From assembly GCA_024278215.1 (NCBI GenBank), contig JAJRTR010000163.1, positions 1-33,824 on the forward strand: a stretch of DNA of 33,824 bases, in the 5' to 3' direction. The position numbers were made by a program, and so were the translations under genes. Source of the DNA: a bacterium. GTDB lineage: Bacteria; UBP15; UBA6099; JAJRTR01. Under the pieces are notes generated by a model that was not told the DNA's origin, did not search any database, and was given only the letters and a program-made list of their open reading frames with translations. This document shows positions 13,022 to 31,170 of the stretch, in pieces. Numbering within the stretch: the first letter of the stretch is position 1; each line of letters starts with the position of its first letter.

Positions 13022-13051
13022 TTGACATTCGCAGACAACAGGGAATATCTT
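13022..13051 (+). promoter_or_regulatory. sigma70-like promoter for the oxidoreductase-SCP2 gene
   Basis: TTGACA (13022-13027) lies 18 nt before TATCTT (13046-13051), directly after the preceding terminator. Transcription would begin near 13058, 36 nt before the preferred ATG at 13094. This argues against the longer reading frame that begins within the -35 box. Confidence 0.5.
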
Positions 13052-13093
13052 CTTGATGAAGAACATTCTTCGGAAATGAAAGAGGGAAACGAT

Positions 13094-14843: not shown

Positions 14844-16436
14844 TTACCTTTTTTTCCGCATCAGCGAAAGCAAGTATTTCCACGATTGAACCCTTGTCAT
14901 ATTACCCAGATAGAAACGAGCGAGTTCGCCGATGACGGCAATCCGGCTGACGGGCATGTCGAGACGGTAAGTTTCGGAAAAGCTGCCGGGGAGAAGGTCC
15001 GTTCGGAGTGTGCCATCGCTGTTGTAGAGTCCTTCTTCGGCCTTTTCGAGAAATGGGATATAGTATTTGTATGTTGCCTGGATCGGGTGATACTGATAGA
15101 AGGATTTTTTATTTTTGCCGTAGAAGATTCTGTATGATTCGGACATCTTTCTTTGCAGTGTGCTGGGGCGCATCTTCGCCGGATAGTGCACTACAAAATT
15201 TCCCGAGTAGAAACGCCAGTCGCGGTGTATGAACCTGTCGTCGGGCAGCGCCTGGGGCGCGCCGAGTACCCGTTCCCTTGTGGGGAAATCGTAGAGACTG
15301 CCGAAACCCCAGTTGTAAACACCGTGTTTCAGCACGAGAGCGAGTGCGCGGTCGATTGTGTTTTCATCGTCGTCGTCGGAGCCGAAAATAAAAAGCGGTT
15401 GTAGTTTGACATCGAAGCGACCAAATATTTCGAGGCACTCCTCGATGTCGCCGATGGACTGTTTTTTCTCGAAAAAGTCAAGAGTGGACGATTGCAGCGA
15501 CTCGATGCCGACGCCGATGCAGGCGCGGCCCGCGCGTTCGATGGCGTGCATCAGTTCTTCGTCGCGCGCGATGAAAATGCGGGCGAAGAAAAACATGTCG
15601 ACATCGCCGCCGAAACGCTGTTCCATGAGCCGAAATATTTCGAGCGCGCGTTCACGGTCGAGCGTGACATCGTTGTCGGCGAAGAAAACATATTTCGTTT
15701 TCAACCTGGAAAAAGACAACTCGATCTCGCGCACCACGAGTTCCGGCTCTTTTGTCCTGTACTTGCGGCCCAGTTCGTGTTTTACAAAACAGAACCTGCA
15801 CTCGAAAGGACATCCGCGCGAAGATTGTACGACAGCAATGTTGAAGCGCAGAACACCGTTGTGAATAGTGTCCTTGAGATAATACAACAGGCTCCTCGGA
15901 GTGTATCCTTCGACGATTCCCGGATCGGCGATCATGTCGAGTTTAGACACAAAACCGGCTGACGGGTTGTGCACCGCGCGGTCGTTGCTTCCGATATACG
16001 ACACGCCTTTGACGCCGGAAACGTCGCCGCCGTTTTTCAGCGTTTCGAGCAGTTCGAGGATTATCGCTTCGCCTTCGTTCCTGATAACATAATCGCAATG
16101 TTTCAGGCAGTCTTCGGGAAGTACACTGGCGTGCGAGCCGCCGAAAACAATCGGTGTGTCCGGACTCTCCGCGCGTATCCGATCCGCGTAGGCGTAGCCT
16201 TTGTGGGATGAAAACGACATGAGTGAAAAGCAGACGATGTCGGAATCCGCCACCCGCCGCCAGTCGATTTTACTACCGGATAATTCGCAATAAGTTTTGA
16301 CGTCGTAGCCAGCTTCGATCAGTGCGGTCGCGACGACGAGCAGTCCGTATCTTGGCATGAAAGCGCGGTAGGACGTCACCTGCAGGGGCAGGCTGTCGTC
16401 ATAAGGGCATATAATTGTGATTTTGTGTATTTCCAT
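14844..16436 (-). CDS. B12-binding-domain radical SAM protein (tandem copy B)
   Basis: A 530-residue class-B-type radical SAM protein. Residues about 1-140 form a cobalamin-binding-like Rossmann domain (SLMSFSSHKGY, GGSHASVLPEDC, RNEGEAII); the canonical DxHxxG loop is not evident. The [4Fe-4S] motif is Cys209/Cys213/Cys216 (RGCPFECRFC), followed by a TIM-barrel half with YVFFADNDVTLDRERA and CIGVGIESLQ. A C-terminal segment of about 150 residues (FYSGNFVVHYPAKMRP onward) is shared with its neighbour. These proteins use SAM, and often cobalamin, for methylation or C-C chemistry; the substrate is unknown. ATG 16436 lies inside the 3' end of the upstream paralogue (38-nt overlap), so the two are coupled. 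It is the last gene of the minus operon. Confidence 0.88.
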   Translation of the reverse strand: MEIHKITIICPYDDSLPLQVTSYRAFMPRYGLLVVATALIEAGYDVKTYCELSGSKIDWRRVADSDIVCFSLMSFSSHKGYAYADRIRAESPDTPIVFGGSHASVLPEDCLKHCDYVIRNEGEAIILELLETLKNGGDVSGVKGVSYIGSNDRAVHNPSAGFVSKLDMIADPGIVEGYTPRSLLYYLKDTIHNGVLRFNIAVVQSSRGCPFECRFCFVKHELGRKYRTKEPELVVREIELSFSRLKTKYVFFADNDVTLDRERALEIFRLMEQRFGGDVDMFFFARIFIARDEELMHAIERAGRACIGVGIESLQSSTLDFFEKKQSIGDIEECLEIFGRFDVKLQPLFIFGSDDDDENTIDRALALVLKHGVYNWGFGSLYDFPTRERVLGAPQALPDDRFIHRDWRFYSGNFVVHYPAKMRPSTLQRKMSESYRIFYGKNKKSFYQYHPIQATYKYYIPFLEKAEEGLYNSDGTLRTDLLPGSFSETYRLDMPVSRIAVIGELARFYLGNMTRVQSWKYLLSLMRKKR

Positions 16437-18054
16437 TATATGTCGGATTGGTACGCACTTTGTAGCTGCTGTTTGTTACAAGCGAAGCGAGTTGTTTCCA
16501 TGATTGTGGCCGCAGTATGTTCCCGGCATAAAAACGAGCGATTTCAACAAGCAGAGCCAGTCGGTTGACGGACACGCCGATATCGAATGTATCATACATG
16601 GGGCCGGGCAGCAAATGTTCCCGGAGTGTTCCATCATTATTGTACAATCCTGCTTCAGCCTTTTCCAGAAAGGATATATAGTTTCTGTAGGTCGCCCTGA
16701 TAGGATAATACTGATAAAAAGTGTTTCTGTTAAGGCTGTAGAACTTTCTGAGCACCGTTTCCATTTCCCTCTGCAACACGCTGGGGCGCATTTTTGCCGG
16801 GTAATGAACAACGAAATTTCCAGTATAGAAACGCCAGTCGCGATGGATGAACCTGTCGTCGGGCAAGACCTGCGGGTAGCCGAGGACTTTCCCCCTCGTC
16901 GGGAAATCGAAAAGGCTGCTGAAGCCCCAGTTGTAAACTTTGTGTTTCAGGACGAAAGCGAGGCTACGGCGCAGTGTCTTCTCCTCGACATTGTCCGAAC
17001 CGAAAATAAAAAGCGGTTGAATTTTTACATTGTATCTGCTGAATTCTTCGAGACAATATTCGATGTCGTGTATAGTTTGTTTTTTATTGAAATCTTCGAG
17101 CGTCTCAGGGGCTATAGATTCTATACCCACGCCTATACATGCTCTGCCTGCACGCTCGATAAGCCCCATCAGTTCTTGGTCGAGCGCGGTGGCGGCGCGA
17201 GTGAAAAAAAACATGTCTATGTCGCCGTGAAAACGTTGCTCGATGAGACTGAAAAGCTTGAGAGCATGCTTTCTGTTGACGGCGACATCGTTGTCTGCGA
17301 AAAAAACATAACGAGTTTTGAGCCTGTCCAGCGCAAGTTCGATTTCCCTGAGGACAAGTGCAGGTGATTTCGTGCGGTATCTCCGGCCAAGTTCTTGTTT
17401 GACAAAGCAGAATCTGCACTCGAACGGGCAGCCGCGGGATGTTTGCGCCACGGCGAAGTTAAAACGCAGAACGCCGTTTTTTAAAGTATCTCCGAAATAG
17501 GAAGTGAGGGTTCTCGGGGAATAACCTTCGATGAGCCCGGGATCAGCCACAATATCCAGGCTTTTGATAAAATCCGCCGGTGGGTTATGGACCGGTGTGC
17601 CGTCAGTGCCGATATACGATATGCCTTTCACTTCGGAAACATCGCCGCCGTTTTCAATCGCTTCAAGCAATTCGACAATTATCGCTTCGCCCTCATTTCT
17701 CACAACGTAGTCGAAGTGATCGAGACATTCTTCAGGCAGTACACTCGCATGCGCTCCGCCGACGATAATCGGTATTTCCGGGTTCATGCGCCTGATACGC
17801 GCCACGAACTCATAGCCCCTGCGCGATGAAAAGGACATGAGTGAGAAACATATAACATCCGATTCGGCAACCCGGCGCCAGTCCACCTTGCTACCGGAAG
17901 CTTCGCAATATGCTTTTACTTCATATCCGACATTTCGCAGTGTTGTGGCGATGGAAAGAAAACCGTAACATGGAAGATAGGCCCGATATGAGGCGACCTG
18001 TAATGGTATGCGCTTTTCGTATGGGCTTATCATGGTGATTTTATTAATGAACAA
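16399..18054 (-). CDS. B12-binding-domain radical SAM protein (tandem copy A)
   Basis: A 551-residue paralogue of the next gene downstream, 144 of the first 220 residues identical by hand count (65%), with the same Cys209/Cys213/Cys216 positions (RGCPFECRFC), the same YVFFADNDVAVNRKHA and the same C-terminal extension. The start is TTG 18054: it aligns with the Met of the paralogue (FINKITMISPY against EIHKITIICPY). The last 20 or so residues, after WKQLASLV, are polar and have no match in the paralogue, and run into the next gene. Two related but diverged copies suggest two successive or alternative reactions on similar substrates. Substrate unknown. Confidence 0.88.
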   Translation of the reverse strand: MFINKITMISPYEKRIPLQVASYRAYLPCYGFLSIATTLRNVGYEVKAYCEASGSKVDWRRVAESDVICFSLMSFSSRRGYEFVARIRRMNPEIPIIVGGAHASVLPEECLDHFDYVVRNEGEAIIVELLEAIENGGDVSEVKGISYIGTDGTPVHNPPADFIKSLDIVADPGLIEGYSPRTLTSYFGDTLKNGVLRFNFAVAQTSRGCPFECRFCFVKQELGRRYRTKSPALVLREIELALDRLKTRYVFFADNDVAVNRKHALKLFSLIEQRFHGDIDMFFFTRAATALDQELMGLIERAGRACIGVGIESIAPETLEDFNKKQTIHDIEYCLEEFSRYNVKIQPLFIFGSDNVEEKTLRRSLAFVLKHKVYNWGFSSLFDFPTRGKVLGYPQVLPDDRFIHRDWRFYTGNFVVHYPAKMRPSVLQREMETVLRKFYSLNRNTFYQYYPIRATYRNYISFLEKAEAGLYNNDGTLREHLLPGPMYDTFDIGVSVNRLALLVEIARFYAGNILRPQSWKQLASLVTNSSYKVRTNPTYNGNTQNHNYMPL

Positions 18055-18105
18055 AAGATACCCGGAACCTTTCGTTATTTTTCAGTTCGCACAATATGCA
18101 AACGG

Positions 18106-19224
18106 TCATATAATAATGTTCTCAAATGCTTCTTTCCAGCATATTTTTGAAAGCGGTGCGTCGAGCAGGTCGGCCAGCACGTGTTCGTCGTGCCTGTAGC
18201 AGCCTTTGCAGCCCGACAGTATCGTTCGATATTCGCTGCGGTTGTGCTCCATGAGGTCCGAAGCGCGGCGCACTGTTCGCAGTTCGCTGGGGTAGAAGCA
18301 GCACAGCGAGAAGACGCCTGCGGGTGAGATTACTATGTGCGCGGCGGATTCCGCTATGCAGCCTGCGTCGCTGCCTCCGCAAAGATAAGCGACCATGCCG
18401 GTCAGGAAACTTTCAGGGCCGACGACAAATCGCGGATGTTTCCTTTTCATATCGAGAAGTGCGGGCAGTCCGGCTGCGGCCTCTTCTGCACCCGGCTGTA
18501 GCTCCGGCAGATAGTTTAATTGGAACTTGACGCCGTCGACGCCGATGCTTTTCATCTCTTCGACGAATTGGGGCAACGTATCCATATTGTGGCGGTTGAC
18601 GACACACGCAATGATCACGGGGATACGTTTTCTTTTCTCAAGCAGCCGGCCGACACCTGCGACGGCTTTCGCGTAGCTGCCTTCGCCCCTGATTATATCG
18701 TTCGCTCTTTCGGTGCCGTCGATGGAGACCACACACCTGTGGAACCCCGTTTCGATGTCCGCGATGTTGTCGTAATCCAGCAGGGTGCCGTTCGTTATCA
18801 GGATCGTGAACATGCCGCCCGCACGTGAGGCGGCGGACAGGTCGAAAAGGTCCTCGCGCAGCAGGGGCTCTCCACCTGCAATAATGAGCATCGGTGTGCG
18901 AATGCGCGCGAATCCACGGATGAGTTCCAGCGCGTCGGCCGTTCCGAGTTCATCGTCGCTCCCGCGCCGGTCGACGCCTCTGAACATCCTGTCGAACGAA
19001 CACCCCGCACAATGCAGATTGCAACTCGACGTCACCAGGTAGCTGCAAGCGACAGGCAGCATTCTGCCGGTCCTGTGTTCGACGAGCTTCAATAAAAATC
19101 TGGCGGCTGTTTTCAAAGGAAGCATTTCTATGCGCCCGGCTCCGGATACGACATTATCATCGGCGCTTCCGCGCCAATCGGATACTACATGTGAATTATA
19201 GCGATATTCACCGAACTTGTGCAT
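18106..19224 (-). CDS. Radical SAM protein with SPASM-like C-terminal cysteines
   Basis: A 372-residue enzyme without a B12 domain. The cluster motif is Cys68/Cys72/Cys75 (SSCNLHCAGC), followed by IIAGGEPLLRED (the SAM-binding GGE), VVSIDGTERANDIIRG and, at the C-terminus, clustered cysteines (CGGSDAGC, CC, CKGC) suggesting auxiliary Fe-S binding as in SPASM/twitch proteins. The CNLxCAGC core also recalls HpnH-type enzymes. It is the first gene of the minus operon, 51 nt before the next. ATG 19224 lacks a Shine-Dalgarno; ATG 19125 (MLPLKTAARFL) is an alternative start. A perfect inverted repeat lies 10 nt upstream of ATG 19224. Substrate unknown. Confidence 0.85.
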   Translation of the reverse strand: MHKFGEYRYNSHVVSDWRGSADDNVVSGAGRIEMLPLKTAARFLLKLVEHRTGRMLPVACSYLVTSSCNLHCAGCSFDRMFRGVDRRGSDDELGTADALELIRGFARIRTPMLIIAGGEPLLREDLFDLSAASRAGGMFTILITNGTLLDYDNIADIETGFHRCVVSIDGTERANDIIRGEGSYAKAVAGVGRLLEKRKRIPVIIACVVNRHNMDTLPQFVEEMKSIGVDGVKFQLNYLPELQPGAEEAAAGLPALLDMKRKHPRFVVGPESFLTGMVAYLCGGSDAGCIAESAAHIVISPAGVFSLCCFYPSELRTVRRASDLMEHNRSEYRTILSGCKGCYRHDEHVLADLLDAPLSKICWKEAFENIII

Positions 19225-19234
19225 TTGCGAACAT

Positions 19235-19258
19235 CAAACAGTAAAACCATACTGTTTG
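19235..19258. promoter_or_regulatory. Perfect palindrome in divergent promoter region
   Basis: CAAACAGTA (19235-19243) and TACTGTTTG (19250-19258) are exact complements separated by six bases, between the minus-strand start at 19224 and the plus-strand start at 19366. It could be a repressor operator serving both operons, or a hairpin in the minus-strand mRNA only 10 nt before its start codon. The order of half-sites is opposite to the E. coli LexA box. Confidence 0.5.
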
Positions 19259-19329
19259 TATCGTGTATTAGCGAGGCCGGCGCACCGGTGTTGTCCCTTT
19301 TCGTTTCATGCCGCGCCGCTGCCGCGAAA

Positions 19330-19359
19330 TTACAATATGCGCAACATATCAGTTATAAT
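19330..19359 (+). promoter_or_regulatory. Promoter for the plus-strand rSAM/GT-C operon, possibly leaderless
   Basis: A perfect TATAAT (19354-19359) has TTACAA (19330-19335) 18 nt upstream. The expected start of transcription coincides with ATG 19366, and no Shine-Dalgarno precedes this ATG, so the mRNA may be leaderless. Confidence 0.42.
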
Positions 19360-19365
19360 TGTATT

Positions 19366-20781
19366 ATGAGTTCTCCGGATATGCTGCTTGTCGTGCCGCC
19401 GTTTGATTTCTCTGTAATCAATTCGGCAACGGAGCGCAGTTCGAAGCAGGCGGGCTACTACTTGTATTACCCACCGGCCGGACTGTGTTCCATCGCGGCT
19501 GTGCTCGAAGGCGCCGGTTTCGGCGTCGAGATAATCGACGGGCAGGTGGACGCAGGTACGGAAGGCCGTTTTATAGACATGATAGTCGCGGCGCGGCCCT
19601 CGATTATAGGGATCGGGGTGACGACGCCCGCGCTGCCGGTCGTCCGCCGGGTGATCGGCGCGATAAAAAGCCGCCTGGATGTACCGATAGTTGCGGGCGG
19701 GCCACACGTTTCGTGCGATCCGGAGATCGTTGCGCCGCTGGGTGCTGATTATGGTGTCGCGGGCGACGGCGAATATGCGATGAGGGCAATCGCCGAATCG
19801 CTGTTGCGCGGCCTGCCACTCGCGGCGGGTGAGCCCGGTGTTGTTGTGCCCGGTGCTGATTTCACGGGGGGGCCCGCGCTCGTCGATCTCCATTCGCTGC
19901 CGTTTCCTGCGCGCCATAAACTGAAAAACCCCGACGCTTATTTCAATCCCTTTGTCGGATCGCGCACGACGACGCTGCTTACCGCGCGGGGCTGCCCGTT
20001 CCACTGTTCTTTCTGCTCGCGCAATGCCTCGATGGGCGCGTACAGGCCGCTGGAACCCGGGCGCGCGCTCGAAGAGATGGAGCTTGTCGACAGTGAGGGC
20101 TATGGATTCGTTTCTATTCTGGATGAAACATTCACCTTCGAGCGCGACCGGGTGATGGAACTGGCGCGTGAGATGACGAAAAGAGACATAAAATTCCTGT
20201 GGTCGTGCCAGACACGCGCCGACCTCGTCGACGAAGAACTGATGAGAACGTTGCGGGCAGCGGGTTGCATAAATATTTCTTTCGGTGTCGAGGCGGGCGA
20301 CCCGGATGTGCGTGACAGTCTGGATAAGAGGATCAACGACGATGCCTACGACAGAGCCTTCCGCGCCTGCCGTGCAGCTGGTGTCAGCATAAACGCATTT
20401 GTAATCATCGGCAGCCCCGACGAAACGAGGGCGCAGGTCGAGCGGAGCATCGAGCGGGTGATCGAACTCGAACCCGACTACGCTGTCTATAATGTCGGCA
20501 CCCTGTTTCCCGGCACAAAAGAATATGACGCAAGGGTGGAGCGCGGGGAGTGCGAACGCGGGATATGGAACGCTTACATGCGTGGCGGGGAGCCGCTTCG
20601 CGTGCTGTCGCGCACGATGGGCCGTGCCGAGCTGGCGGCGCTGTTGCGGCACGGCTACACGCGATTCTACATGAGACCCGCGTATATGCTGAGGAGATTG
20701 TTGAGGATAAGGTCTCTGCTCGACATCTCCGTGCTTTTTCGTCAGGCACGCACGGTGATTTCCGATTATGTCGTGTCATGA
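19366..20781 (+). CDS. B12-binding-domain radical SAM protein
   Basis: A 471-residue protein. The N-terminal cobalamin-binding-like domain spans about residues 5-145 (LLVVPPFDF, GLCSIAAVLEGAGFGVEIIDG, IIGIGVTTPA, IVAGGPHVSCDPE, GDGEYAMRAI). The radical SAM core has Cys210/Cys214/Cys217 (RGCPFHCSFC), then SILDETFTFERDRV and INISFGVEAGDPDVRDSLDK. The C-terminus (from about residue 400) is a short basic helical segment. It is distant from both tandem pairs nearby. ATG 19366 is chosen over the open frame beginning at 19219, because the family N-terminus begins here and a TATAAT sits just upstream. First gene of the plus-strand operon. Substrate unknown. Confidence 0.88.
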   Translation: MSSPDMLLVVPPFDFSVINSATERSSKQAGYYLYYPPAGLCSIAAVLEGAGFGVEIIDGQVDAGTEGRFIDMIVAARPSIIGIGVTTPALPVVRRVIGAIKSRLDVPIVAGGPHVSCDPEIVAPLGADYGVAGDGEYAMRAIAESLLRGLPLAAGEPGVVVPGADFTGGPALVDLHSLPFPARHKLKNPDAYFNPFVGSRTTTLLTARGCPFHCSFCSRNASMGAYRPLEPGRALEEMELVDSEGYGFVSILDETFTFERDRVMELAREMTKRDIKFLWSCQTRADLVDEELMRTLRAAGCINISFGVEAGDPDVRDSLDKRINDDAYDRAFRACRAAGVSINAFVIIGSPDETRAQVERSIERVIELEPDYAVYNVGTLFPGTKEYDARVERGECERGIWNAYMRGGEPLRVLSRTMGRAELAALLRHGYTRFYMRPAYMLRRLLRIRSLLDISVLFRQARTVISDYVVS

Positions 20782-20844
20782 ACAGAAAATGGTACAAAGT
20801 GCGAAAAATTATTATTTGCAGCGAACGAAAGAGATACTTCTGAA

Positions 20845-22776
20845 TTGACACCACGGGAAAACACACAACGATACGGAATCGGAAGACGCAACAGTGTTAT
20901 CGCGGCGCTTGTGTTTCTGGTGGCGGCGTGTGTGTACATGTGGGGCGCTGCTCCCGATGTTGGATGGGGCGACGGCGCGGACTTTGTGCTCACCGCCCAT
21001 TATCTCGGTGTGCCGCATCCGACAGGGTATCCGCTTATCGCATTACTGGGCAAGCTTGCGGAATATATCCCGGTCGGCACGCTCGCGTTTCGTGTCGGCC
21101 TGATGAGCGTTTTCGCGGGCGCGGCAGCGGCATCCCTGTTTTTTATGCTCGCCGCGTCACTTTCGCGACAGACCGGCGGCGGCACGATATTTCCCCTTTA
21201 CGCCACTGTCGTAATGATCCTTTCGTCTTTCCTTCTCGATCAGGCGATTACTATCGAGGTCTACACGATAAACCTGTTTTTCTGCCTGTGTATTCTCGCG
21301 CTTTCCGGACCGCTGACAGGCGGCGGATCACTGCGCACACTGATGATGCTCGTGATTGTCGCGTGCATCGGGCTGGGCAATCACGGCACCCTCATTTTTC
21401 CAGCGGTGCTGCTCGGCTTCATCGGGCTGTTTGCGTTAAGGCGCGGCAGAATTGTTGCGGTCGCGACTGCCTCTTTCCTTGTTCTGACAGGGTTCACACT
21501 GTATTTGTGCCTGCCGTTGTTCTCGGCGCGCACAGATATATTCGACTGGAATTCACCAGCGAACCCCGCGAACCTGCCGACGCTTTTGAGCGGATACGAC
21601 TTCTGGGTTGTCGGCGAATACAGGACGGCGCTGATGTGGCTGAACACGAAGCTGCTGGCGGGCTCGATAGCGCGACAAACGTGGCCGCTGCTGATGGCAG
21701 GCGCGCTGTTTTTCGCTTTCGCGAAAAGCGTCGCGCGCGGTGCGAAGTGGACGCTTGCAGGTGTATTCGCGCTGTCCGCTTTTTTCCCGGTTTTGTATCC
21801 GACGCACGAGAAGGAAGCGTTTTTTCTCATTGCATACGCGGTGTTCCTGCTTGCGGCGGCTGTCGGGGGCGCGGCGGCACTGGGCGTGGTGAAGCGCAGG
21901 CATGGCGGGGCGGGCCGCGCGGGCTCTATAACTGCGTTTGTGGTGATTATTGCGCTTGCGCATGTTTATGTTTTGAGCGCGAATCTTACAACCGGAAAAG
22001 CGTCGGCAAACAGGACCGACACGACGCCGGAAACCTACTCGAAGCTCATATTTAAAAGCGCGCGGCGCGACGCGCTCATTTTCGTCGACCACGTCGCCGA
22101 CGACGCGATAGCGCCGCCTCTGTATTTCCAGTTCGAGGGCGGCGCGCGGCGCGACACATTCATTTTCTACCGCCTGTATCTGGCTTTTCCGTGGTGGCGG
22201 GCGAACATGAGAGCACGCGCCGCGCAACTGGGCGACGGTGTCATTATTCCGGAAATAGATTTCGATGCGGAGAAGTTGAAAAATTATAAGATTTCGGTCG
22301 AAGAATATGAGCGGCTGCATGAGGGGAAGACGCTGAATACGGTCAGCATAGATATACAGACAAAGAAAATATATGAGGCGAATGTGAGGCGGCGACCGGT
22401 GTATATCAATACCCCGGCGCGTTTCCGCCGCTCGGTGATCAGCGAGGACGTGCCGATTCTGCTCGATGGTTTCCTGTTCAGGCTGGGGGGCTCGAAGGCG
22501 CGGGGTGAGTTTGACAGGCCGGTGCCGGCGCACGGTGTTTTTGACTCGGTAATATTCGATTATTTCACGGAGCGGGCGTACAATTATTACAGCAGGGACG
22601 ATACGAAGGGCTTTGCCGCCGCTCTCGAGGACGCACTGAAATATGAAGATAAGTGCTGGGTTTTCGGAGAACTCGCCGGTGCGTACAGGCAGCTTGGAGA
22701 AAGGGAGAAGTCGGAACGATTCCTGGACAGATATGAGGGATGCGGAGCGCGTGACATATTAAATGATATTTATTAA
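20845..22776 (+). CDS. DUF2723 GT-C-type membrane glycosyltransferase
   Basis: A 643-residue membrane protein. After the first helix (about 18-38), GWGDGADFVLTAHYLGVPHPTGYPL (in two parts, residues about 40-65) is the DUF2723 signature with acidic residues in the first extracytoplasmic loop, as in lipid-sugar-dependent GT-C enzymes. About ten hydrophobic segments follow to residue 380, then a soluble domain to the end. The family is expected to transfer sugar from a polyprenyl-phosphate donor outside the cytoplasmic membrane; donor and acceptor are unknown here. TTG 20845 is the only reasonable start; no in-frame ATG precedes the first helix. Its last 14 bases overlap the next radical SAM gene. 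Confidence 0.83.
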   Translation: MTPRENTQRYGIGRRNSVIAALVFLVAACVYMWGAAPDVGWGDGADFVLTAHYLGVPHPTGYPLIALLGKLAEYIPVGTLAFRVGLMSVFAGAAAASLFFMLAASLSRQTGGGTIFPLYATVVMILSSFLLDQAITIEVYTINLFFCLCILALSGPLTGGGSLRTLMMLVIVACIGLGNHGTLIFPAVLLGFIGLFALRRGRIVAVATASFLVLTGFTLYLCLPLFSARTDIFDWNSPANPANLPTLLSGYDFWVVGEYRTALMWLNTKLLAGSIARQTWPLLMAGALFFAFAKSVARGAKWTLAGVFALSAFFPVLYPTHEKEAFFLIAYAVFLLAAAVGGAAALGVVKRRHGGAGRAGSITAFVVIIALAHVYVLSANLTTGKASANRTDTTPETYSKLIFKSARRDALIFVDHVADDAIAPPLYFQFEGGARRDTFIFYRLYLAFPWWRANMRARAAQLGDGVIIPEIDFDAEKLKNYKISVEEYERLHEGKTLNTVSIDIQTKKIYEANVRRRPVYINTPARFRRSVISEDVPILLDGFLFRLGGSKARGEFDRPVPAHGVFDSVIFDYFTERAYNYYSRDDTKGFAAALEDALKYEDKCWVFGELAGAYRQLGEREKSERFLDRYEGCGARDILNDIY

Positions 22777-24136
22777 CCCTGATTGTTTTCACATATACAG
22801 ATTCCCGTCGATGGGCATGATGTACATCGCTTCGCATCTCGCGGCGCGGGGGCGGCGGGTGAAATATGTGGACCCGAATTTCGACCGCAACTGGTGCGAC
22901 ACACTCGACGCCGAGGTGGACAAACACGAGTGGGTGGGCATCACCGCGAATGTGCTGTCGATTATGCCGGCGATGGAAATGGTGAAATATGTCCGGGAGA
23001 AGTATCCGGAAAAGAAAATCATTATGGGAGGTCCATACCCGGCGATAAACCGTGAGGAAATACTTGACGAGTATGCGGACGCCGTCGCTTTCGGCGAAGC
23101 GGAAACGACATGCGCGGAACTGGAAGCCGGGACGGAATTGAAAGACATAAAAGGACTGGCCTGGCGCGACAACGGCGCGGCACATATCAACGAAGCGAGG
23201 CCGCTGCACGAGGACCTCGACGCGCTCGCGTTCCCCGACTGGTCGATGGGGCATGTCGACAGATATGTTATCGACCACTCGAAGCGAAACCCGGTGCTGC
23301 CGCTGCTCACGAGCCGCGGCTGTCCGTTCAACTGCATATTCTGCGCGTCGGATGTGACATTCGGCAACCGCATAAGATACCGCTCGATAGACAACGTGAC
23401 GGCGGAAGTCGAGGAGCTTGTCGGGAAGCACGGAGGGCGCGAGATACATATATGGGACGACAATTTCACACTGCGCCGAAAGCGCGTTATGGAGTTCTGC
23501 GAAGCGCTTATGAAATTGAAACTGCGAGGTATAAGTTTCAAAGTGCCCGCAGGGATCAAGCCGGATATCGGCGACTACGAGATGTTCCGCGCGATGAAGA
23601 GGGCCGGTTTCTATTCTGTTTGTGTGGCGGTGGAGACGGGTGACCAGGAGATAATGAAAAAACTCGGCAAAAAGGTCCGGGTGGACAAAGTTAAAGACGT
23701 CGTCGCCGCAGCGCGGCGCGCCGGGCTGCTGGTGAACGGCTTTTTTATGCTCGGCCTGCCGTTCGACACGGAAGAGACGATGCGGCGCAACATCGACCAC
23801 GCCTGTGCGCTGCCGCTGCACGAGGCGAACTTTTTTATTACGGTTCCTTTCCCCGGCACCGAGTTGTACGACATCGTGCGCGAGGAAGGGAAATTCCTTT
23901 TCCATAACGAACAGAATCTATACGAGGACGGCTACCTGCTGGGACGCGCGACGTGCGAGATGCCGGGTTTCGACGCTGAGACGGTCGAGCGAATGTTCAA
24001 GCTGGCAAACCGCCGCTTCTATTTCAGGCCGCTGGTGATCGTCGCGCTCATTTTTAAACGGATATATTCGCCGATGCACTTTTTCGTCATGGTTCGAAAT
24101 GCGTTTCGCATCTTGTTCAGGGGGCGTAAATTCTGA
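22763..24136 (+). CDS. B12-binding-domain radical SAM protein (tandem copy C)
   Basis: A 457-residue protein. It starts MIFINPDCF, then a B12-binding-like domain (HEWVGITANVLS, KKIIMGGPYPAI, ADAVAFGEAE), the cluster motif Cys187/Cys191/Cys194 (RGCPFNCIFC), IHIWDDNFTLRRKRVMEFC, and FYSVCVAVETGDQEIMKKLGKK. A C-terminal helical piece with basic and hydrophobic residues (FRPLVIVALIFKRIYSP) may touch the membrane. Family members methylate or couple carbon centres; many act on lipids or lipid-linked substrates. The start overlaps the DUF2723 gene by 14 nt, and the stop abuts the next start (TGAATG). Substrate unknown. Confidence 0.88.
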   Translation: MIFINPDCFHIYRFPSMGMMYIASHLAARGRRVKYVDPNFDRNWCDTLDAEVDKHEWVGITANVLSIMPAMEMVKYVREKYPEKKIIMGGPYPAINREEILDEYADAVAFGEAETTCAELEAGTELKDIKGLAWRDNGAAHINEARPLHEDLDALAFPDWSMGHVDRYVIDHSKRNPVLPLLTSRGCPFNCIFCASDVTFGNRIRYRSIDNVTAEVEELVGKHGGREIHIWDDNFTLRRKRVMEFCEALMKLKLRGISFKVPAGIKPDIGDYEMFRAMKRAGFYSVCVAVETGDQEIMKKLGKKVRVDKVKDVVAAARRAGLLVNGFFMLGLPFDTEETMRRNIDHACALPLHEANFFITVPFPGTELYDIVREEGKFLFHNEQNLYEDGYLLGRATCEMPGFDAETVERMFKLANRRFYFRPLVIVALIFKRIYSPMHFFVMVRNAFRILFRGRKF

Positions 24137-25510
24137 ATGATTTTCATCAACCCGGACTGCTTCCAGGGATACCGTTTCCCCTCTATCGGCCTGCTGTATA
24201 TGGCCGCCGCGCTCGAGCGGAACGGGATGCCTGTCGAGTATATCGACCCGAACTACGACCCCGCGTGGCGGCGGCGACTCGACGACGCCGCGCCACGCCA
24301 CGAGTGGATCGGGATTACTGCCAACATCCTTTCACTCAAGCCGGCGCTGGAGTTGTCGGCGCTGGTGCGCGCGGAATATCCCGGCAAAAAAATCATAATG
24401 GGAGGACCGTATCCGTCGATAAAGTATGCGGACCTGATACCGGAACACGCCGACGCGGTGGCTGTAGGCGAGTCGGAAGAAACAATAATCGATGTTGCGA
24501 ACGGGCGTCCGTCAGGTGAAATAAAAGGCGTCGCGTGGAGCGACGGCGGCACGGTTATTTTCAATGGGCGGCGCGACCTGATAAAAGATATAGACACGAT
24601 AGCGCCACCCGCGTGGCGCCTGGGCCATGTGAAGAAATACCGGCTCGAGCACACGAAGAGAAACCCGGTGCTTCCGCTGCTCACCAGCCGGGGATGCCCG
24701 TTCAAATGTATATTCTGCGCGTCGCGCGTAATATTCGAGTCGCGTATACGGTACCGTTCCATCGACAGAGTCATCGAGGAGTTCGACGAGCTCACAGTGG
24801 AGCACGGAGCGCGGGAAGTGCATATCTGGGACGACAACTTCACGCTGCGGCGCGACCGAGTGATGGAGTTCTGCGAGCGGCTGGCGACGCGCCGTAAGAG
24901 AGGCGTGAGCCTGATGATACCGTCGGGCATAAAGCCGGATATTGGCGATTACGAGATGTTCCGGGCGATGCGCCGGGCGGGTTTCTATTCTGTGTGCATC
25001 GCGGTGGAGTCTGGCGACCGAGAGATAATGAAGAGCCTTGGGAAGAAGGTGGACGTGGGAAAGGTGCGCGGAGTGATCTCCGCCGCGCGGCGCGCGGGGT
25101 TGTTGCTGAACGGTTTTTTCATGCTCGGGCTGCCTGATGATACTGAAGAAACGATGCGGCGCAATATCGAACATGCCTGTTCGCTGCCGCTGCACCAGGC
25201 GCTGTTTTTTGTGACGATACCGTTTCCGGGCACCGAACTTTACGATATTGTAAAAGAGAAGGGGAAATTGCTGTATGATAATGAGGTAGAGTTGTACGAA
25301 CGCGGCTACTTCCAGGGACGCGCGACGTGCGAGATGCCGGGCTTCGACGCCGGGACGCTCGAGAAGATGTACAGGCTGGCGAACCGCAGGTTCTATTTCA
25401 GGCCGGCGGTGCTGGCGGCGCTGTTCTTTAAGAAACTGCACAGTCCGCTGCAATTATTTTTCATGATGCGGAAGTGGTTCAGGGTAGTGATGAGAGGCAG
25501 ACAATTCTGA
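24137..25510 (+). CDS. B12-binding-domain radical SAM protein (tandem copy D)
   Basis: A paralogue of the preceding gene with exactly the same length (457 residues) and cysteine positions (187/191/194, RGCPFKCIFC); 103 of the first 190 residues are identical by hand count (54%), and the core and C-terminus look closer. It keeps MIFINPDCF, HIWDDNFTLRRDRVMEFC, MIPSGIKPDIGDYEMFRAM and GFFMLGLPDDTEETMRRNI. ATG 24137 directly follows the previous stop. Its own stop shares a base with the next ATG (TGATG), so the operon is tightly coupled. Two copies with no length change suggest selection for two related reactions. Substrate unknown. Confidence 0.88.
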   Translation: MIFINPDCFQGYRFPSIGLLYMAAALERNGMPVEYIDPNYDPAWRRRLDDAAPRHEWIGITANILSLKPALELSALVRAEYPGKKIIMGGPYPSIKYADLIPEHADAVAVGESEETIIDVANGRPSGEIKGVAWSDGGTVIFNGRRDLIKDIDTIAPPAWRLGHVKKYRLEHTKRNPVLPLLTSRGCPFKCIFCASRVIFESRIRYRSIDRVIEEFDELTVEHGAREVHIWDDNFTLRRDRVMEFCERLATRRKRGVSLMIPSGIKPDIGDYEMFRAMRRAGFYSVCIAVESGDREIMKSLGKKVDVGKVRGVISAARRAGLLLNGFFMLGLPDDTEETMRRNIEHACSLPLHQALFFVTIPFPGTELYDIVKEKGKLLYDNEVELYERGYFQGRATCEMPGFDAGTLEKMYRLANRRFYFRPAVLAALFFKKLHSPLQLFFMMRKWFRVVMRGRQF

Positions 25511-28500
25511 TGACGGAGCTGAAAAAGAAGAAATTGCCGGTCGACCGCTGGGTGCCGCCGCTGCTGTTTATCGCCGTGTTCGGTTACATGCTGCTGTGCG
25601 CCGTGCCCGATCTGTACTGGGGCGACAGCGCGGAGATGACGGCGGTCTCGTGCGATATGGGTGTCGCGCATTCACCGGGCTACCCGCTGTATATAATGAT
25701 ATCGAAGTTGTTCGGCGCGCTTCCCTTTGCGACCTATCCGTTCCGTATAAACGTCATGAGCGCGTTTTTCGCGGCGCTGGCAGTGGTGCTTATATACAGG
25801 CTGGCGACGATGCTGATAGGGGGTTCACGAGTCGCCGGGCTCGTGGCGGCGGTCGGGCTGATGGGGTGCCGTGAGTTCGTGCGTTTCGGGCTGTACGCGG
25901 AAGTCTACGCGCTGCATATAGCGCTGTTGGCGGGGGTGCTGCTGCTTGTGGCCGGTCACTACAGGCGCGGTGGCGACCTGCGAATAGTTTTCGCGCTCAT
26001 GCTGGCGGGTATCGGGATGACGCACCACATAATGATGATATTCGTGCTGGGCGCGGTGCTGTTCTACATGCTGATCGCGCCGGGGCACAGGCTGCGGATC
26101 GCGGCCGGAGTGCCGGTGCTGTTGTGCGGCGAGGGAGTCATACTGATATTCCGCACACACGCGACAGCGCTTCAGACGATGCAGTATTTCCAATACGGGC
26201 TGTATGCAGCGGTCGCGCTCTTTGCAATATACACGGGTATAGTCTTCTGGAAGAAAAAGAATGCCGCGTCGACGCTGAAACTCGCGTTCGCCGCGCTCTT
26301 CATCCCCGCGCTGTGCCTGTTGCTGTTTGTCTATATCCCGTTCGCTGCTTCGCGCAGGCCGGTATCCGACTGGTGGGCACCGAGTTCCGCCGCGAACTTC
26401 ATCAGCCTGCTGCTTGTGCAGGGTTACGCTTCGACATTCCCGGCGAGCGGTCTCGAATGGCTGCAAAGATTGAACCTGATGGGAGTGCTGCTGCAAGTGC
26501 CATTTCTGATTATGCTCGTGGCGCTGCCGGGGCTGGTATATCTGCTGTGGAAAAAGACGCGCGCGGGCCTGTTCCTGCTCGTGTTCATGGTGGCGGCGTT
26601 CGCCGGTTCGCTGCTGGTGGCGCACGGCAAGCCGGACGCGCTGAGGCTGCCGGTGTACGTGACGATATACGTCATGGCGGGCGTCGGCGCGGGCACGATA
26701 ATCGGCTGGCGGTTTCTCCAGGGAAGTGTGTTCAAGAGGGTGTTGAGAACGGTTGCGCTGGTTATTGTGGGCGTGATTCTCGCGCTGAATCTCGCCGACA
26801 CCGATCTGCGATACATGAACCGCAGCGGCGGCTCGCGCGAACTGGGCGAGGCTATTATCAACCAGGTGCTGCCGGGCAGTTTCCTTTTCATCGGCACCAA
26901 CTCGCCCAGCATCATGGGCTACCTCGAATCATGTGAGCCGGAAAAGGTGTCGGATAAAGATATTACCATGATCCCCGTCTCTTTCCTTCCTTTCGAGTGG
27001 AAGCTCGATCAGTTGCGGCGGAAGTATCCGGATGTGATTTTCCCGGCACCGCCCGCCGAATGGGACAACAACCCCATCTTCAGGGTCGACGATCCCCTGC
27101 GCGCAAGATATGCCGAGGAGATTCTCGAAAGCAACAGCAAGAAGACCGGCGTGTACTCGGACTTTCAGTTCCTGACCGACGAATACGGGCGGTTCACGAT
27201 TCCACACGGTGCCGCCTACCAGCTTGTGCCCACTGACGTATCCCCTGATCGTATCAAGGAAATGATGGACGCCGATGTGCCGCCGGAATGGAATAAAGAG
27301 CAATATCGCGACGTTGTCAGCGCTACCAATATCGCTTCGGTATACAACGAGCGCGGAAAGATATTTTTCGAATATGCGCTGAGCGACATGGACGAAACGC
27401 TGGTCCGCAGGGCACTGGACGAATTTAAAAAAGCGTTGGGAATTATTGACACCGCGCTCGACAAGTATGATCGCGCTCTAAGAGTCGAAAAAGCCGCCAT
27501 AGATACTATGAGCAATGTTCTCGACAGGAAGAAAACCGGTACGGAAGATGAGCCCGGTATCGACGTAAATATTCAATTGGACCTTGTGGGCGAAAAAGAC
27601 GAAGATGAAGACAAATGGAGAGTGTTTTACGGCCAGTTGCGCGAGTTGCTCGACCTGCGCGCCGAAGTGATGTCCAACAGGGGCCAGTGCCGCATCTTTT
27701 ACGGGCAGTCGAGAGAAGGGCTGAAGCTTATGCAGAAGGCGATCCGGCTCTCGCCGCTGAACCCCCGCCTGTACGAAACACTCGCCACGGCTTACTACCG
27801 CACCCAGTCGGCCGCCGGGTCGACCAGGGCCATCGCGCTCTGGAGCGCCGTCACAAAACTCGACCCGAACAACGCGCGCGCCTACCACAACATAGGGAGC
27901 GCGCTGGTCGGAATACGTCAGGCGGAAAAAGCGATACCTTATTATACGAAAGCTATCAGCATCGACCCGGACTACAAATCCGCTTACATCAACCTCGGGC
28001 GCGTCTTCAACAAGCTGGGCAACTGCGCCATGGCCGCCACCACGCTCGAACAGGCGAAAAAACAATTGCCGCAGGACCTCACGATCAGGAGCGAGCTCGT
28101 GCAGCAATATGCCGAGTGCGGCATGCAGCACCTTTACGCGGCGGAAGTCGAATCCATGATCGCCGATTTCCCGCGCAATAAAGAACTCTTCTACACACTC
28201 GGCATCATTTTCAGGAACGTCAAACAGGTGGGCAACCTCGCTAAAGCTATCGAGGCGCTCAAGGACCTCGACCCGGACTTCCCCGTCCGTACACTTTTTA
28301 CCTCCATGCAGGATTGCCGCGAAGCGATTCCACTGATCGAGGACCTCCTGAAATACGTTTCCGACGATCCGTACCTGCGGCTCGAGTTGAGCCTGCGCTA
28401 CGGGGCGTGCGGAGAAGTCGATAAAGCTATAAAGGTGATGGAATATATCGTCGACAATTACCCGTCCCTTACGGCGGCCCCGATAATGCTCGAAAGAATG

Positions 28501-28599
28501 AAAGACCCGAATGCCAAAACCCTGCTCGCGCCCGACATGCCGGACATCGGCGACGGGGCTGCGGATTATTACGAAAAGTACAAGTTGCAGCAACCGTGA
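25510..28599 (+). CDS. DUF2723 GT-C membrane protein with C-terminal TPR domain
   Basis: A 1029-residue protein. The N-terminal half is DUF2723: YWGDSAEMTAVSCDMGVAH and SPGYPLYIMI near residues 35-65, then about a dozen hydrophobic segments to about residue 440. A soluble region follows, with an acidic stretch (VGEKDEDEDKW near residue 700), then at least four TPR-like helical repeats (RLYETLATAYYRT, ARAYHNIGSALVG, KSAYINLGRVFNK, KELFYTLGIIFRN) to about residue 920. The TPR part probably faces the extracytoplasmic side and binds a partner or acceptor. Start ATG 25510 shares a base with the preceding stop; ATG 25474 would lie inside the upstream gene. Second GT-C of the operon, with the rSAM pair between the two. 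Confidence 0.85.
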   Translation: MTELKKKKLPVDRWVPPLLFIAVFGYMLLCAVPDLYWGDSAEMTAVSCDMGVAHSPGYPLYIMISKLFGALPFATYPFRINVMSAFFAALAVVLIYRLATMLIGGSRVAGLVAAVGLMGCREFVRFGLYAEVYALHIALLAGVLLLVAGHYRRGGDLRIVFALMLAGIGMTHHIMMIFVLGAVLFYMLIAPGHRLRIAAGVPVLLCGEGVILIFRTHATALQTMQYFQYGLYAAVALFAIYTGIVFWKKKNAASTLKLAFAALFIPALCLLLFVYIPFAASRRPVSDWWAPSSAANFISLLLVQGYASTFPASGLEWLQRLNLMGVLLQVPFLIMLVALPGLVYLLWKKTRAGLFLLVFMVAAFAGSLLVAHGKPDALRLPVYVTIYVMAGVGAGTIIGWRFLQGSVFKRVLRTVALVIVGVILALNLADTDLRYMNRSGGSRELGEAIINQVLPGSFLFIGTNSPSIMGYLESCEPEKVSDKDITMIPVSFLPFEWKLDQLRRKYPDVIFPAPPAEWDNNPIFRVDDPLRARYAEEILESNSKKTGVYSDFQFLTDEYGRFTIPHGAAYQLVPTDVSPDRIKEMMDADVPPEWNKEQYRDVVSATNIASVYNERGKIFFEYALSDMDETLVRRALDEFKKALGIIDTALDKYDRALRVEKAAIDTMSNVLDRKKTGTEDEPGIDVNIQLDLVGEKDEDEDKWRVFYGQLRELLDLRAEVMSNRGQCRIFYGQSREGLKLMQKAIRLSPLNPRLYETLATAYYRTQSAAGSTRAIALWSAVTKLDPNNARAYHNIGSALVGIRQAEKAIPYYTKAISIDPDYKSAYINLGRVFNKLGNCAMAATTLEQAKKQLPQDLTIRSELVQQYAECGMQHLYAAEVESMIADFPRNKELFYTLGIIFRNVKQVGNLAKAIEALKDLDPDFPVRTLFTSMQDCREAIPLIEDLLKYVSDDPYLRLELSLRYGACGEVDKAIKVMEYIVDNYPSLTAAPIMLERMKDPNAKTLLAPDMPDIGDGAADYYEKYKLQQP

Positions 28600-28683
28600 G
28601 CTGTGGCAACAGCATCGAAAAGTTGCAGGCATTCAGAGGTCCACAACGGCAGCCCCGCACCGCGAAGAGAGGAGAGGATATCG

Positions 28684-31170
28684 TTGTCCGAGAATAACGA
28701 CAGCAGAAAACGCGCTACAGTAATCGAACTGATCAGCCGGGTCGGGCAGACACTTCAGTCGTCCCGCGGCCTCGAATCTATCCTAAAAGACATCATTGAA
28801 ATCATCATCGAGCTGATGGCTGCCGATGCATGCTCGATATACCTCTACGAAGACGGCTTGCTGAGGCTCAAGTCGACAAAGGGCATGGGATTCACCGAAG
28901 ACGAGAAGATCACCATCGGACTGGGCGAAGGAATAACGGGTCTCACGGCACTCGATAAAAAGCCATACGCGATTCGCGATATCGACGCCAGGGAAGACCT
29001 TGGAAATATCCCCATAAGAGGATCGAAGAAATTCCGCGCGCTGCTGAGTGTCCCAATGTTGGACGGCGATAAACTTATCGGCGTTATGAACGTGTGGAAA
29101 AAGGAACCTTACGAGCACACCGAAACAGAAAAGAATTTCATAATGTTCATCGCAACACAGCTCGTGGGTTCGATACGCATCACACAGCTTTACGAAGAAG
29201 TCATTCGCGGTTTCAGGGAGATAGCGACAATTCACCAGGTCGGGCAGATCGTATCGTCGGTGCTCGAACTCGACGAATTGCTGCCCGTGATCGCGAGAAC
29301 GATATGCGAACACCTTTCGGCGCGCGGTTGTGTCGTGCGGCTGCTCAATCCCGACAACGGCCTGCTCGAGATACGGGGCTACTACGGCATAACCCCCGAG
29401 CAGGCCGCCGGCAGGGGCCTCGAGCCGGGAGAAGGCATCCCCGGACAGGTCGTTTCGTCAAGTGCACCGGTGATAAGAAAAGAACCTTGCGAGTTCGATG
29501 ACGAACAACCCCGCGATCTCGAAAACATGCAATGTTCGATAATATGCGTTCCACTGACATACAAAAACAAGGTCATCGGCACACTCGGCGTCTTCGATAA
29601 AATACTGCCTTTCAGCAACGAACCAGCGCTCTTCGAGAACGAAGACATCGGGCTCGTGTCCATGATCGGCAACCAGGTCGCTATGGCCATCGACAACGCC
29701 CACCTCTACAACGCCGCAAAACAATACGCTCAGGAAAAAGACCTTCGCATCAAGGAACTGTCGCTGCTGCTCGAGATAACAAACGTAATGCGCAGTTCCA
29801 CAGACCTCGACGAACTTCTCTACATGATACTTACAAGTGTCACGATGGGCGAAGGACTCGGCTTCAACAGGGCGCTGCTCTTCCTCACGGATGACAACGA
29901 CAGAGTCCTCGACGGGAAAATGGCTGTCGGGCCGCTAAGGCCTGAAGATGCCGAACGGCACTGGAACGCCATCGTAGACAAATCGAACAAAACATTATAC
30001 GAAAAGGTCAAGGAATACGGTCGCCTCAACATGGAAATGGGTTTCGAGATCGACAGGCGCATCAAGTCCGCTTCCATACCGCTCTCCGCCGAAAAAGGCG
30101 TCATCGCCAGAACAGCACTCGAGCGCAGTACTTTCAATGTTACTGATTACTGTCCGCCCGAACACAGCGAGGAACAGATCATCGCGCAACTCGGCTTTTC
30201 TACTTTCGTTTCCGTGCCCCTGATAGCGAAAGACAGGGTGATCGGCGTGGTAGTCGTCGACAACCTTATCACGAAAGAACCTATCACCGACGACCTGGTG
30301 AAGTTCCTGAAGCTGTTTGCAAACCAGGCGGCAAGCGCCATCGAAATGGGCTGGGTATATAAAAACCTCGAGCGCACGAACCGCCACCTCATCGACGCGC
30401 GCGACCTGCTTGTGCGCACGAAAACACTCGCCACTCTCGGCGAGTTCTCCGCCGGGGTCGCCCACGAACTGCGCAACCCGCTCGTCGCTATCGGCGGCTT
30501 CTCGAAACGCCTTGCGAAGATGCTCGACGGCGAATCGAAAGAAGCCCGCTATGCCGCTATTATTTCACGAGAGGTCGAAGGCCTCGAAAAAATACTCAAC
30601 CAGATACTCGATTTCGTCGGCGGCGCGAAACCCTCCTTCAAACGCGCCGACATGGTGAATCTTATCGAACAGGTACTCAGGCTGTTTAACGCGAGTTTCC
30701 GCGAAAATAATATCGAAGTGCTTACAGATTACGACAGTCGCGTCAACGAACTTGTTGTCGACGAGGTGCAGATGCGGCAACTGTTCATCAACCTCGTGAA
30801 AAACGCGATCGAGGCGATGAAAGGCGAAGGCGGCACGCTGAGTATTGCCTCCGCGCTTGTCGAGGAAGGCGCAGGCGGCGTCGGATTCGAGATATCCGAC
30901 ACTGGAAGCGGAATCCATGCCGAGGACCTCGAACACATTTTCGATCCTTTTTTCACAAAAAAGGAAGAAGGTACAGGACTCGGGCTGCCGATGTGCTCGC
31001 GCATTGTCGAAGGCAGCCACGGCGGCCGCATTTTCGTCGACAGCAAAATAGGGCGCGGCACAAATATCCTCGTATGGCTGCCCGTCGATACCATCCCGGC
31101 CGAGGGCAGACTGAACTTCGAAGACGCTCAGAAAATGCAGGAACACAACCGGTTGCCGACAAACTTATAA
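28684..31170 (+). CDS. Triple-GAF sensor histidine kinase
   Basis: An 828-residue soluble two-component kinase. Three GAF-type sensor domains are at about residues 25-165 (ADACSIYLYEDGLLRLKS), 185-345 (RGCVVRLLNPDNGLLEIRG, YYG) and 355-560 (FNRALLFLTDDNDRVL, FSTFVSVPLIAKDRVIGVVVVD). HisKA follows with phospho-acceptor His594 in GEFSAGVAHELRNPL, then a HATPase domain with N box NLVKNAIEAM, DTGSGIHAEDLEHIFDPFF and GTGLGLPMC. There is no transmembrane segment and no response regulator next to it. TTG 28684 is preferred over GTG 28603 because GGAGAGG (28671-28677) lies 6 nt upstream and the extra N-terminus is low-complexity. It follows the GT-C gene by 84 nt on the same strand and could regulate it. 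Confidence 0.9.
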   Translation: MSENNDSRKRATVIELISRVGQTLQSSRGLESILKDIIEIIIELMAADACSIYLYEDGLLRLKSTKGMGFTEDEKITIGLGEGITGLTALDKKPYAIRDIDAREDLGNIPIRGSKKFRALLSVPMLDGDKLIGVMNVWKKEPYEHTETEKNFIMFIATQLVGSIRITQLYEEVIRGFREIATIHQVGQIVSSVLELDELLPVIARTICEHLSARGCVVRLLNPDNGLLEIRGYYGITPEQAAGRGLEPGEGIPGQVVSSSAPVIRKEPCEFDDEQPRDLENMQCSIICVPLTYKNKVIGTLGVFDKILPFSNEPALFENEDIGLVSMIGNQVAMAIDNAHLYNAAKQYAQEKDLRIKELSLLLEITNVMRSSTDLDELLYMILTSVTMGEGLGFNRALLFLTDDNDRVLDGKMAVGPLRPEDAERHWNAIVDKSNKTLYEKVKEYGRLNMEMGFEIDRRIKSASIPLSAEKGVIARTALERSTFNVTDYCPPEHSEEQIIAQLGFSTFVSVPLIAKDRVIGVVVVDNLITKEPITDDLVKFLKLFANQAASAIEMGWVYKNLERTNRHLIDARDLLVRTKTLATLGEFSAGVAHELRNPLVAIGGFSKRLAKMLDGESKEARYAAIISREVEGLEKILNQILDFVGGAKPSFKRADMVNLIEQVLRLFNASFRENNIEVLTDYDSRVNELVVDEVQMRQLFINLVKNAIEAMKGEGGTLSIASALVEEGAGGVGFEISDTGSGIHAEDLEHIFDPFFTKKEEGTGLGLPMCSRIVEGSHGGRIFVDSKIGRGTNILVWLPVDTIPAEGRLNFEDAQKMQEHNRLPTNL

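Follow-up and report, generated by a model that had tools for sequence, protein, structure and literature searches.

A conserved bacterial operon pairs B12-binding radical SAM enzymes with TMEM260-like GT-C glycosyltransferases and may serve glycan tailoring

Radical SAM enzymes are cytoplasmic, and GT-C glycosyltransferases use polyprenyl-phosphate sugars on the outer face of the membrane. The class B radical SAM fold can serve non-methylating chemistry, as exemplified by AprD4, and no class B enzyme is known to us whose substrate is the sugar donor used by a membrane glycosyltransferase. Among the closest described enzymes, aminoglycoside sugars are the substrates of AprD4 and of two methylases, GenK and GenD1 (PMC5461906), and a hopanoid (lipid-linked) glucosamine is that of HpnJ (PMC12583986). 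For the human GT-C enzymes of O-mannosylation, TMEM260 and the TMTC proteins, the donor is dolichol-phosphate mannose, acidic residues in the first loop are thought to be used, and the TPRs probably recruit the protein (PMC11292533). Our literature searches for DUF2723 with radical SAM, for DUF2723 alone, and for B12 radical SAM with GT-C or polyprenyl found nothing, nor was a published function found for bacterial members of the TMEM260 family in the literature searched. The enzyme kinds described below are thus known and their conserved pairing itself appears to be undescribed, the negative literature result being weak evidence, as subscription journals were mostly outside the scope of the searches and the TMEM260-like family (PF11028) has other names.

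We analyzed a window of 33,824 bases, which is an entire contig (C139) of a draft bacterial genome of 4.55 Mb (G000). Pfam analysis identified five genes for proteins with B12-binding and Radical_SAM domains, one for a Radical_SAM protein that has no B12-binding domain, and two for proteins of family PF11028 (the same as DUF2723), as listed in Table 1. The gene content is therefore as given in the original prediction, which counted five B12-type and one SPASM-like radical SAM genes beside two DUF2723 genes, with the modification that two radical SAM pairs (rB1/rB2 and rA1/rA2) are tandem paralogues, so that there are four distinct radical SAM families (rB, rSPASM, rC, and rA) and not six. The remaining B12-type proteins are only 24–29% alike, and GTC1 and GTC2 are distant relatives (25–32% locally). 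The CxxxCxxC motif is intact in all radical SAM genes of the locus, and the combination of an N-terminal B12-binding domain with a CxxxCxxC radical SAM core, as indicated by Pfam, the motifs, and an rA model compared by Foldseek, places the B12-type proteins in class B. The curated NCBIfam cut-offs were missed by all six. For rC, the open reading frame was annotated from 19219, and the likely start is at about 19366, since the methionine common to the orthologues (54–59% identical) is residue 50 of that frame. Likewise, the frame of GTC2 was listed from 25474, inside the preceding gene, but translation more likely begins at 25510, where an ATG forms a TGATG overlap. The plus-strand overlaps and abutment that had been predicted are also real: in addition to this TGATG, GTC1 and rA1 overlap by 14 bp (22763/22776), and rA1 directly abuts rA2 (24136/24137). 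The statement that the locus has no regulator was not strictly right, as a GAF-GAF-GAF-HisKA-HATPase sensor kinase gene (28603–31170) begins 3 bp past GTC2; in relatives, it is not a same-strand neighbour of the operon. Elsewhere in the window, between 1943 and 10623, there are sugar-nucleotide genes, comprising two epimerases, a dehydrogenase of the UDP-glucose/GDP-mannose type, and a WecA/MraY-type GT4, which adjoin LeuA-like and acetolactate-synthase-like genes and are unlinked to the operon in relatives.

Table 1. Features of the locus, with corrected gene starts for rC and GTC2 (module 1, plus-strand operon; module 2, minus-strand genes).
Feature	Position	Strand	Basis
rC: B12-binding radical SAM, operon gene 1	19366..20781	+	Pfam B12-binding 1.6e-20, Radical_SAM 1.4e-23
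GTC1: TMEM260-like GT-C, short TPR-like C-terminal tail (by eye)	20845..22776	+	PF11028 1.9e-14
rA1: B12-binding radical SAM, HpnJ/AprD4-like, tandem copy 1	22763..24136	+	Pfam, NCBIfam, AF2 model
rA2: tandem copy 2 of rA, 64% identical to rA1	24137..25510	+	Pfam; single copy in relatives
GTC2: TMEM260-like GT-C, long C-terminal TPR domain	25510..28599	+	PF11028 1.3e-19, TPR models
rSPASM: radical SAM, C-terminal Cx13Gx4C...CxxC auxiliary-cluster-like motif, module 2	18106..19224	-	Pfam
rB2: B12-binding radical SAM, module 2	16399..18054	-	Pfam, tree
rB1: B12-binding radical SAM, module 2	14844..16436	-	Pfam; 66% identical to rB2
Divergent intergenic region, module 1/module 2	19125..19365	.	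Corrected gene starts, alignments with relatives

Comparison with six other genomes of the same order (G001–G006; seven genomes in total) indicated that the plus-strand genes form a conserved operon. All four genes of the set rC-GTC1-rA-GTC2 are present, in this order, in G001, G003, and G004, where the overlaps measure 14, 14, and 4 bp, respectively. In G005, contig ends divide the operon into two parts, rC-GTC1' and 'GTC1-rA-GTC2, and in G006, rA-GTC2 fill a contig of 4.3 kb. In G002, which belongs to a third family, the C-terminus of a GTC1-like protein overlaps the start of rA, as judged by eye, and no GTC2 follows rA. The gene order is thus kept in two bacterial families, and its retention at a protein identity of 41–65% in the other family excludes chance. 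The left and right neighbours of the operon, which were compared by position and annotated in part, differ among the genomes, and because the flanks vary while the four genes are constant, the pattern points to rC-GTC1-rA-GTC2 as a self-contained unit. The same positional comparison of partly annotated neighbours revealed no conserved gene for a polyprenyl-phosphate sugar synthase or flippase next to the operon. The rA orthologues of the other genomes are single-copy and 52–62% identical to rA1, and those of GTC2 are 44–45% identical; the tree favours a duplication of rA inside this lineage, with moderate support (85/91). The conserved synteny between radical SAM and DUF2723 genes that the original prediction had proposed as its check thus holds for the plus-strand operon and fails for the locus as a six-gene radical SAM unit, so that the prediction is partly supported.

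The minus-strand genes are separable from the operon. In G001 (contig C147) and G006 (contig C370), rSPASM and rB are adjacent, far from the operon, and have other neighbours, with rSPASM being 45–46% identical with conserved cysteines and rB1 being 67–68% identical to the single rB copies. Because rSPASM-rB is found elsewhere in relatives, the head-to-head locus is a local joining of two units, and rSPASM-rB would constitute a second radical SAM module. That all six radical SAM and both GT-C proteins serve one pathway expressed from a shared divergent promoter region is very improbable: the two modules do lie head to head, their corrected starts some 240 bp apart, which agrees with it, but it is weakened by this separability of the modules, and G003, which has the operon and rB, has no rSPASM orthologue at the threshold used. 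We accordingly rejected a single pathway of six radical SAM enzymes. In G001 and G006, rSPASM-rB lies within a small radical SAM island (L086, 4416–17694, and L087), after a protein of 1,328 residues with cytochrome/haem-binding domains. With respect to its own relationships, rSPASM has NirJ as its top NCBIfam match, at 96 bits, far under the cut-off, and the top families also include AhbC/AhbD and the SPASM/twitch peptide maturases, with scores likewise far under their cut-offs. By eye, it has the Cx13Gx4C and CxxC parts of the full seven-cysteine SPASM motif and lacks the Cx5Cx3C part, so that only half of the SPASM cysteines are present. RiPP biosynthesis was also rejected as a candidate, since a non-exhaustive search found no plausible conserved small precursor in the divergent gap or beside the operon in relatives.

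The two GT-C proteins belong to the TMEM260-like family, with PF11028 scores of 54.2 and 71.1 bits against a curated cut-off of 24.2 bits. A profile of GTC1 matched the solved human TMEM260 (9rql) with an E-value of 5e-26 over 424 columns, including the WGDxAD...GVxHPTGYPL motif, and GTC2 matched it with an E-value of 1e-24. The acidic GDxAD/E of the first extracytoplasmic loop is kept in all orthologues and aligned with the human GDSGE. The human protein O-mannosyltransferases TMEM260 (GT117) and TMTC1-4 thus share with GTC1 and GTC2 the GT-C family, a GDS.(D/E)...GVxHPxGYPL first loop, and a C-terminal TPR; unlike them, GTC1 and GTC2 are bacterial and paired with radical SAM genes, and the kinship is one of sequence.

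For the radical SAM partners, the relationships are broader. An AF2 model of rA (pLDDT 90.2) was compared by Foldseek, and MgmA was the best match (E 1.6e-22), followed by TsrM and AprD4, with AprD4 giving the best TM-score (0.77). AprD4 is also the nearest PDB match by sequence profile for both rA and rC. By fold, rA is equally near to the peptide/amino-acid methylases MgmA and TsrM and to sugar enzymes. The cobalamin methylases TokK, CysS, OxsB, TsrM, and MgmA share the domain order and fold of rA (E down to 1.6e-22), although they are only 15–22% identical and have other substrates. In rA, the B12 domain is covered by the alignments with the true cobalamin enzymes TokK, OxsB, and CysS, but the match to AprD4 starts after that domain, a pattern that leans toward the use of cobalamin by rA. 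AprD4, the paromamine C3' dehydratase, is, together with GenK/GenD1, a sugar-acting radical SAM enzyme; however, it is 20% identical to rA, which has a cobalamin-type B12 domain, and its reductase partner AprD3 was not identified beside the operon. At the level of curated families, AprD4 (NF033070) scored 94 bits for rA1, 89 for rA2, and 121 for rC against a cut-off of 500, and the top match of rA1 and rA2, HpnJ (TIGR03471), which acts in hopanoid cyclitol ether formation, scored 214.1 and 175.3 bits, respectively, against 577.6. The similarities of rA to HpnJ and AprD4 are hence leads, not membership. On the basis of the Foldseek E-values, which are led by the peptide/amino-acid methylases, and of the TPR domains, which would suit protein recruitment, one could suppose that the radical SAM enzymes modify an acceptor protein in the cytoplasm, by C-methylation or crosslinking, and that the GT-C enzymes glycosylate the same protein after its export. 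This is quite unlikely, as no conserved gene for a precursor or target protein lies beside the operon in relatives and the best TM-score belongs to AprD4.

Also unlikely, if somewhat less so, is the reading of the original prediction, in which a membrane lipid or polyprenol is methylated or cross-linked by the radical SAM enzymes and then glycosylated outside by the GT-C enzymes. The top NCBIfam matches do include HpnJ, BchE, and the lipid-biosynthesis family TIGR04072, and GT-C enzymes use lipid carriers; however, every curated lipid-enzyme cut-off was missed by a wide margin, BchE (TIGR02026) scored 121–146 bits against 481.35, and the nearest solved relative of the GT-C proteins is a protein O-mannosyltransferase. 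Squalene-hopene cyclase was not detected in any of the seven genomes, and a hopanoid pathway was rejected on this ground. The original prediction had taken an oxidoreductase with an SCP2 domain (13022–14698) as a clue to a hydrophobic substrate. This gene does adjoin the locus in the present genome; in relatives, no such linkage with the operon is seen. Its SCP2 domain is borderline, scoring 21.2 bits where the cut-off is 21.3. Between the two possibilities, we consider a lipid-linked sugar donor likelier than a lipid end product.

To place the operon in a wider context, the neighbourhoods of the 150 best B12-binding radical SAM matches in the seven genomes were compared with the positions of PF11028 and PMT_2 matches. 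A same-strand GT-C gene was present within 1 kb of 20 of these 150 matches, compared with 1.4 expected under uniform placement, in a count in which orthologues were counted repeatedly, contig ends were ignored, and positions were transcribed by hand. The radical SAM gene was upstream of the GT-C gene in all 20, and the same 150 matches gave a single opposite-strand case. Eleven of the pairs represent the TMEM260 operon; the other nine involve the second GT-C family, PMT_2, against an expected 1.1, and fall into about five arrangements. A coupling of B12-type radical SAM and GT-C genes is thus general in the order. It is not obligatory for the glycosyltransferases, because most TMEM260 genes have no radical SAM neighbour (15 of 26 within the order and each of the 13 examined from other groups), indicating that TMEM260 activity does not generally depend on radical SAM enzymes. 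The radical SAM repertoire is large, with at least 45 B12-type profile matches in the 4.5 Mb of G000 and 24–42 in the other genomes. Such a repertoire, and the fact that one radical SAM-PMT_2 pair in relatives ends an apparent heme-biosynthesis operon, would fit mere co-regulation of the two enzyme kinds in a wider cell-envelope or anaerobic-stress programme, with no shared intermediate. We nevertheless consider this improbable, since the genes overlap translationally and keep a constant order in two families while all neighbours change, and since the enrichment is limited to the same strand, with the radical SAM gene always upstream.

Given that the radical SAM enzymes are cytoplasmic and the GT-C enzymes act outside, a shared intermediate should be a donor that crosses the membrane, and the one-to-one coupling of the genes would be explained most simply if the radical SAM enzyme makes, or leads to, the lipid-linked sugar of its partner GT-C. 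Our preferred reading, which we put forward tentatively, is therefore that the product of each radical SAM enzyme is, or becomes, the lipid-linked sugar donor that the partner GT-C transfers outside. The glycan-tailoring operon would then consist of two pairs, rC with GTC1 and rA, duplicated in G000, with GTC2. In the cytoplasm, the cobalamin radical SAM enzyme may alter a polyprenyl-phosphate sugar by C-methylation or by radical deoxygenation or rearrangement; the altered lipid-linked sugar would be flipped across the membrane; and, on the outside, the TMEM260-type GT-C would move it to an acceptor, for which a protein bound through the TPR domain is the likeliest candidate. The proposal draws on the conservation of the operon, the gene coupling, the match of GTC1 to TMEM260, the sugar substrates of AprD4 and HpnJ, and the glycosyltransferase neighbourhoods of some radical SAM relatives outside the order. 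Weighing against it are the HpnJ and AprD4 cut-offs that were missed, the equal nearness of the rA fold to peptide/amino-acid methylases, the lack of a conserved sugar synthase or flippase gene at the operon, the many TMEM260 genes with no radical SAM neighbour, and the abundance of B12-type radical SAM genes in G000. With one radical SAM gene for each GT-C gene, the four-gene unit is a small testable system. If the proposal is true, it would link radical enzymology to protein O-glycosylation and provide functions for a part of the very large uncharacterized radical SAM family.

Beyond the order, rA-like genes lie among GT2 and PMT_2 genes in Omnitrophota (L040) and Helarchaeota (L038) and beside a GT2 gene in Elusimicrobiales (L035), and those of Lentisphaerae and Kiritimatiellota (L031–L033) have no such glycosyltransferase neighbourhood. 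No radical SAM gene was found in the flanks of about 1.5 kb of 13 TMEM260 genes from outside the order, which were relatives of GTC1 from 386 sampled genomes. A more general proposition, which is rather doubtful at present, is a hitherto undescribed route of glycosylation: polyprenyl-phosphate sugars would be C-modified by cobalamin radical SAM enzymes, one for each TMEM260-type GT-C, to yield bacterial glycoproteins with unusual branched or deoxy sugars, and the radical SAM-then-GT-C gene pair would be its signature across several phyla. In the Helarchaeota locus, from an Asgard archaeon, four B12-type radical SAM genes stand with GT2, methyltransferase-like, and PMT_2 genes (L038, 8116–17407). 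Within the order, TMEM260 paralogues that have no radical SAM neighbour have constant upstream partners, either thioredoxin/AhpC-TSA (three genomes; L054, L095, and L096) or GGDEF (two genomes; L055 and L094) genes. A second conserved pair, of a B12-type radical SAM gene followed by PMT_2, was also observed in G001:C57 (L112, 8996–12374), G003:C15 (L113, 7111–10525), G004:C58, G006:C27, and G002:C434, and in L112 and L113, it follows an apparent siroheme-dependent heme biosynthesis operon, which was recognized by length and motif and is partly annotated.
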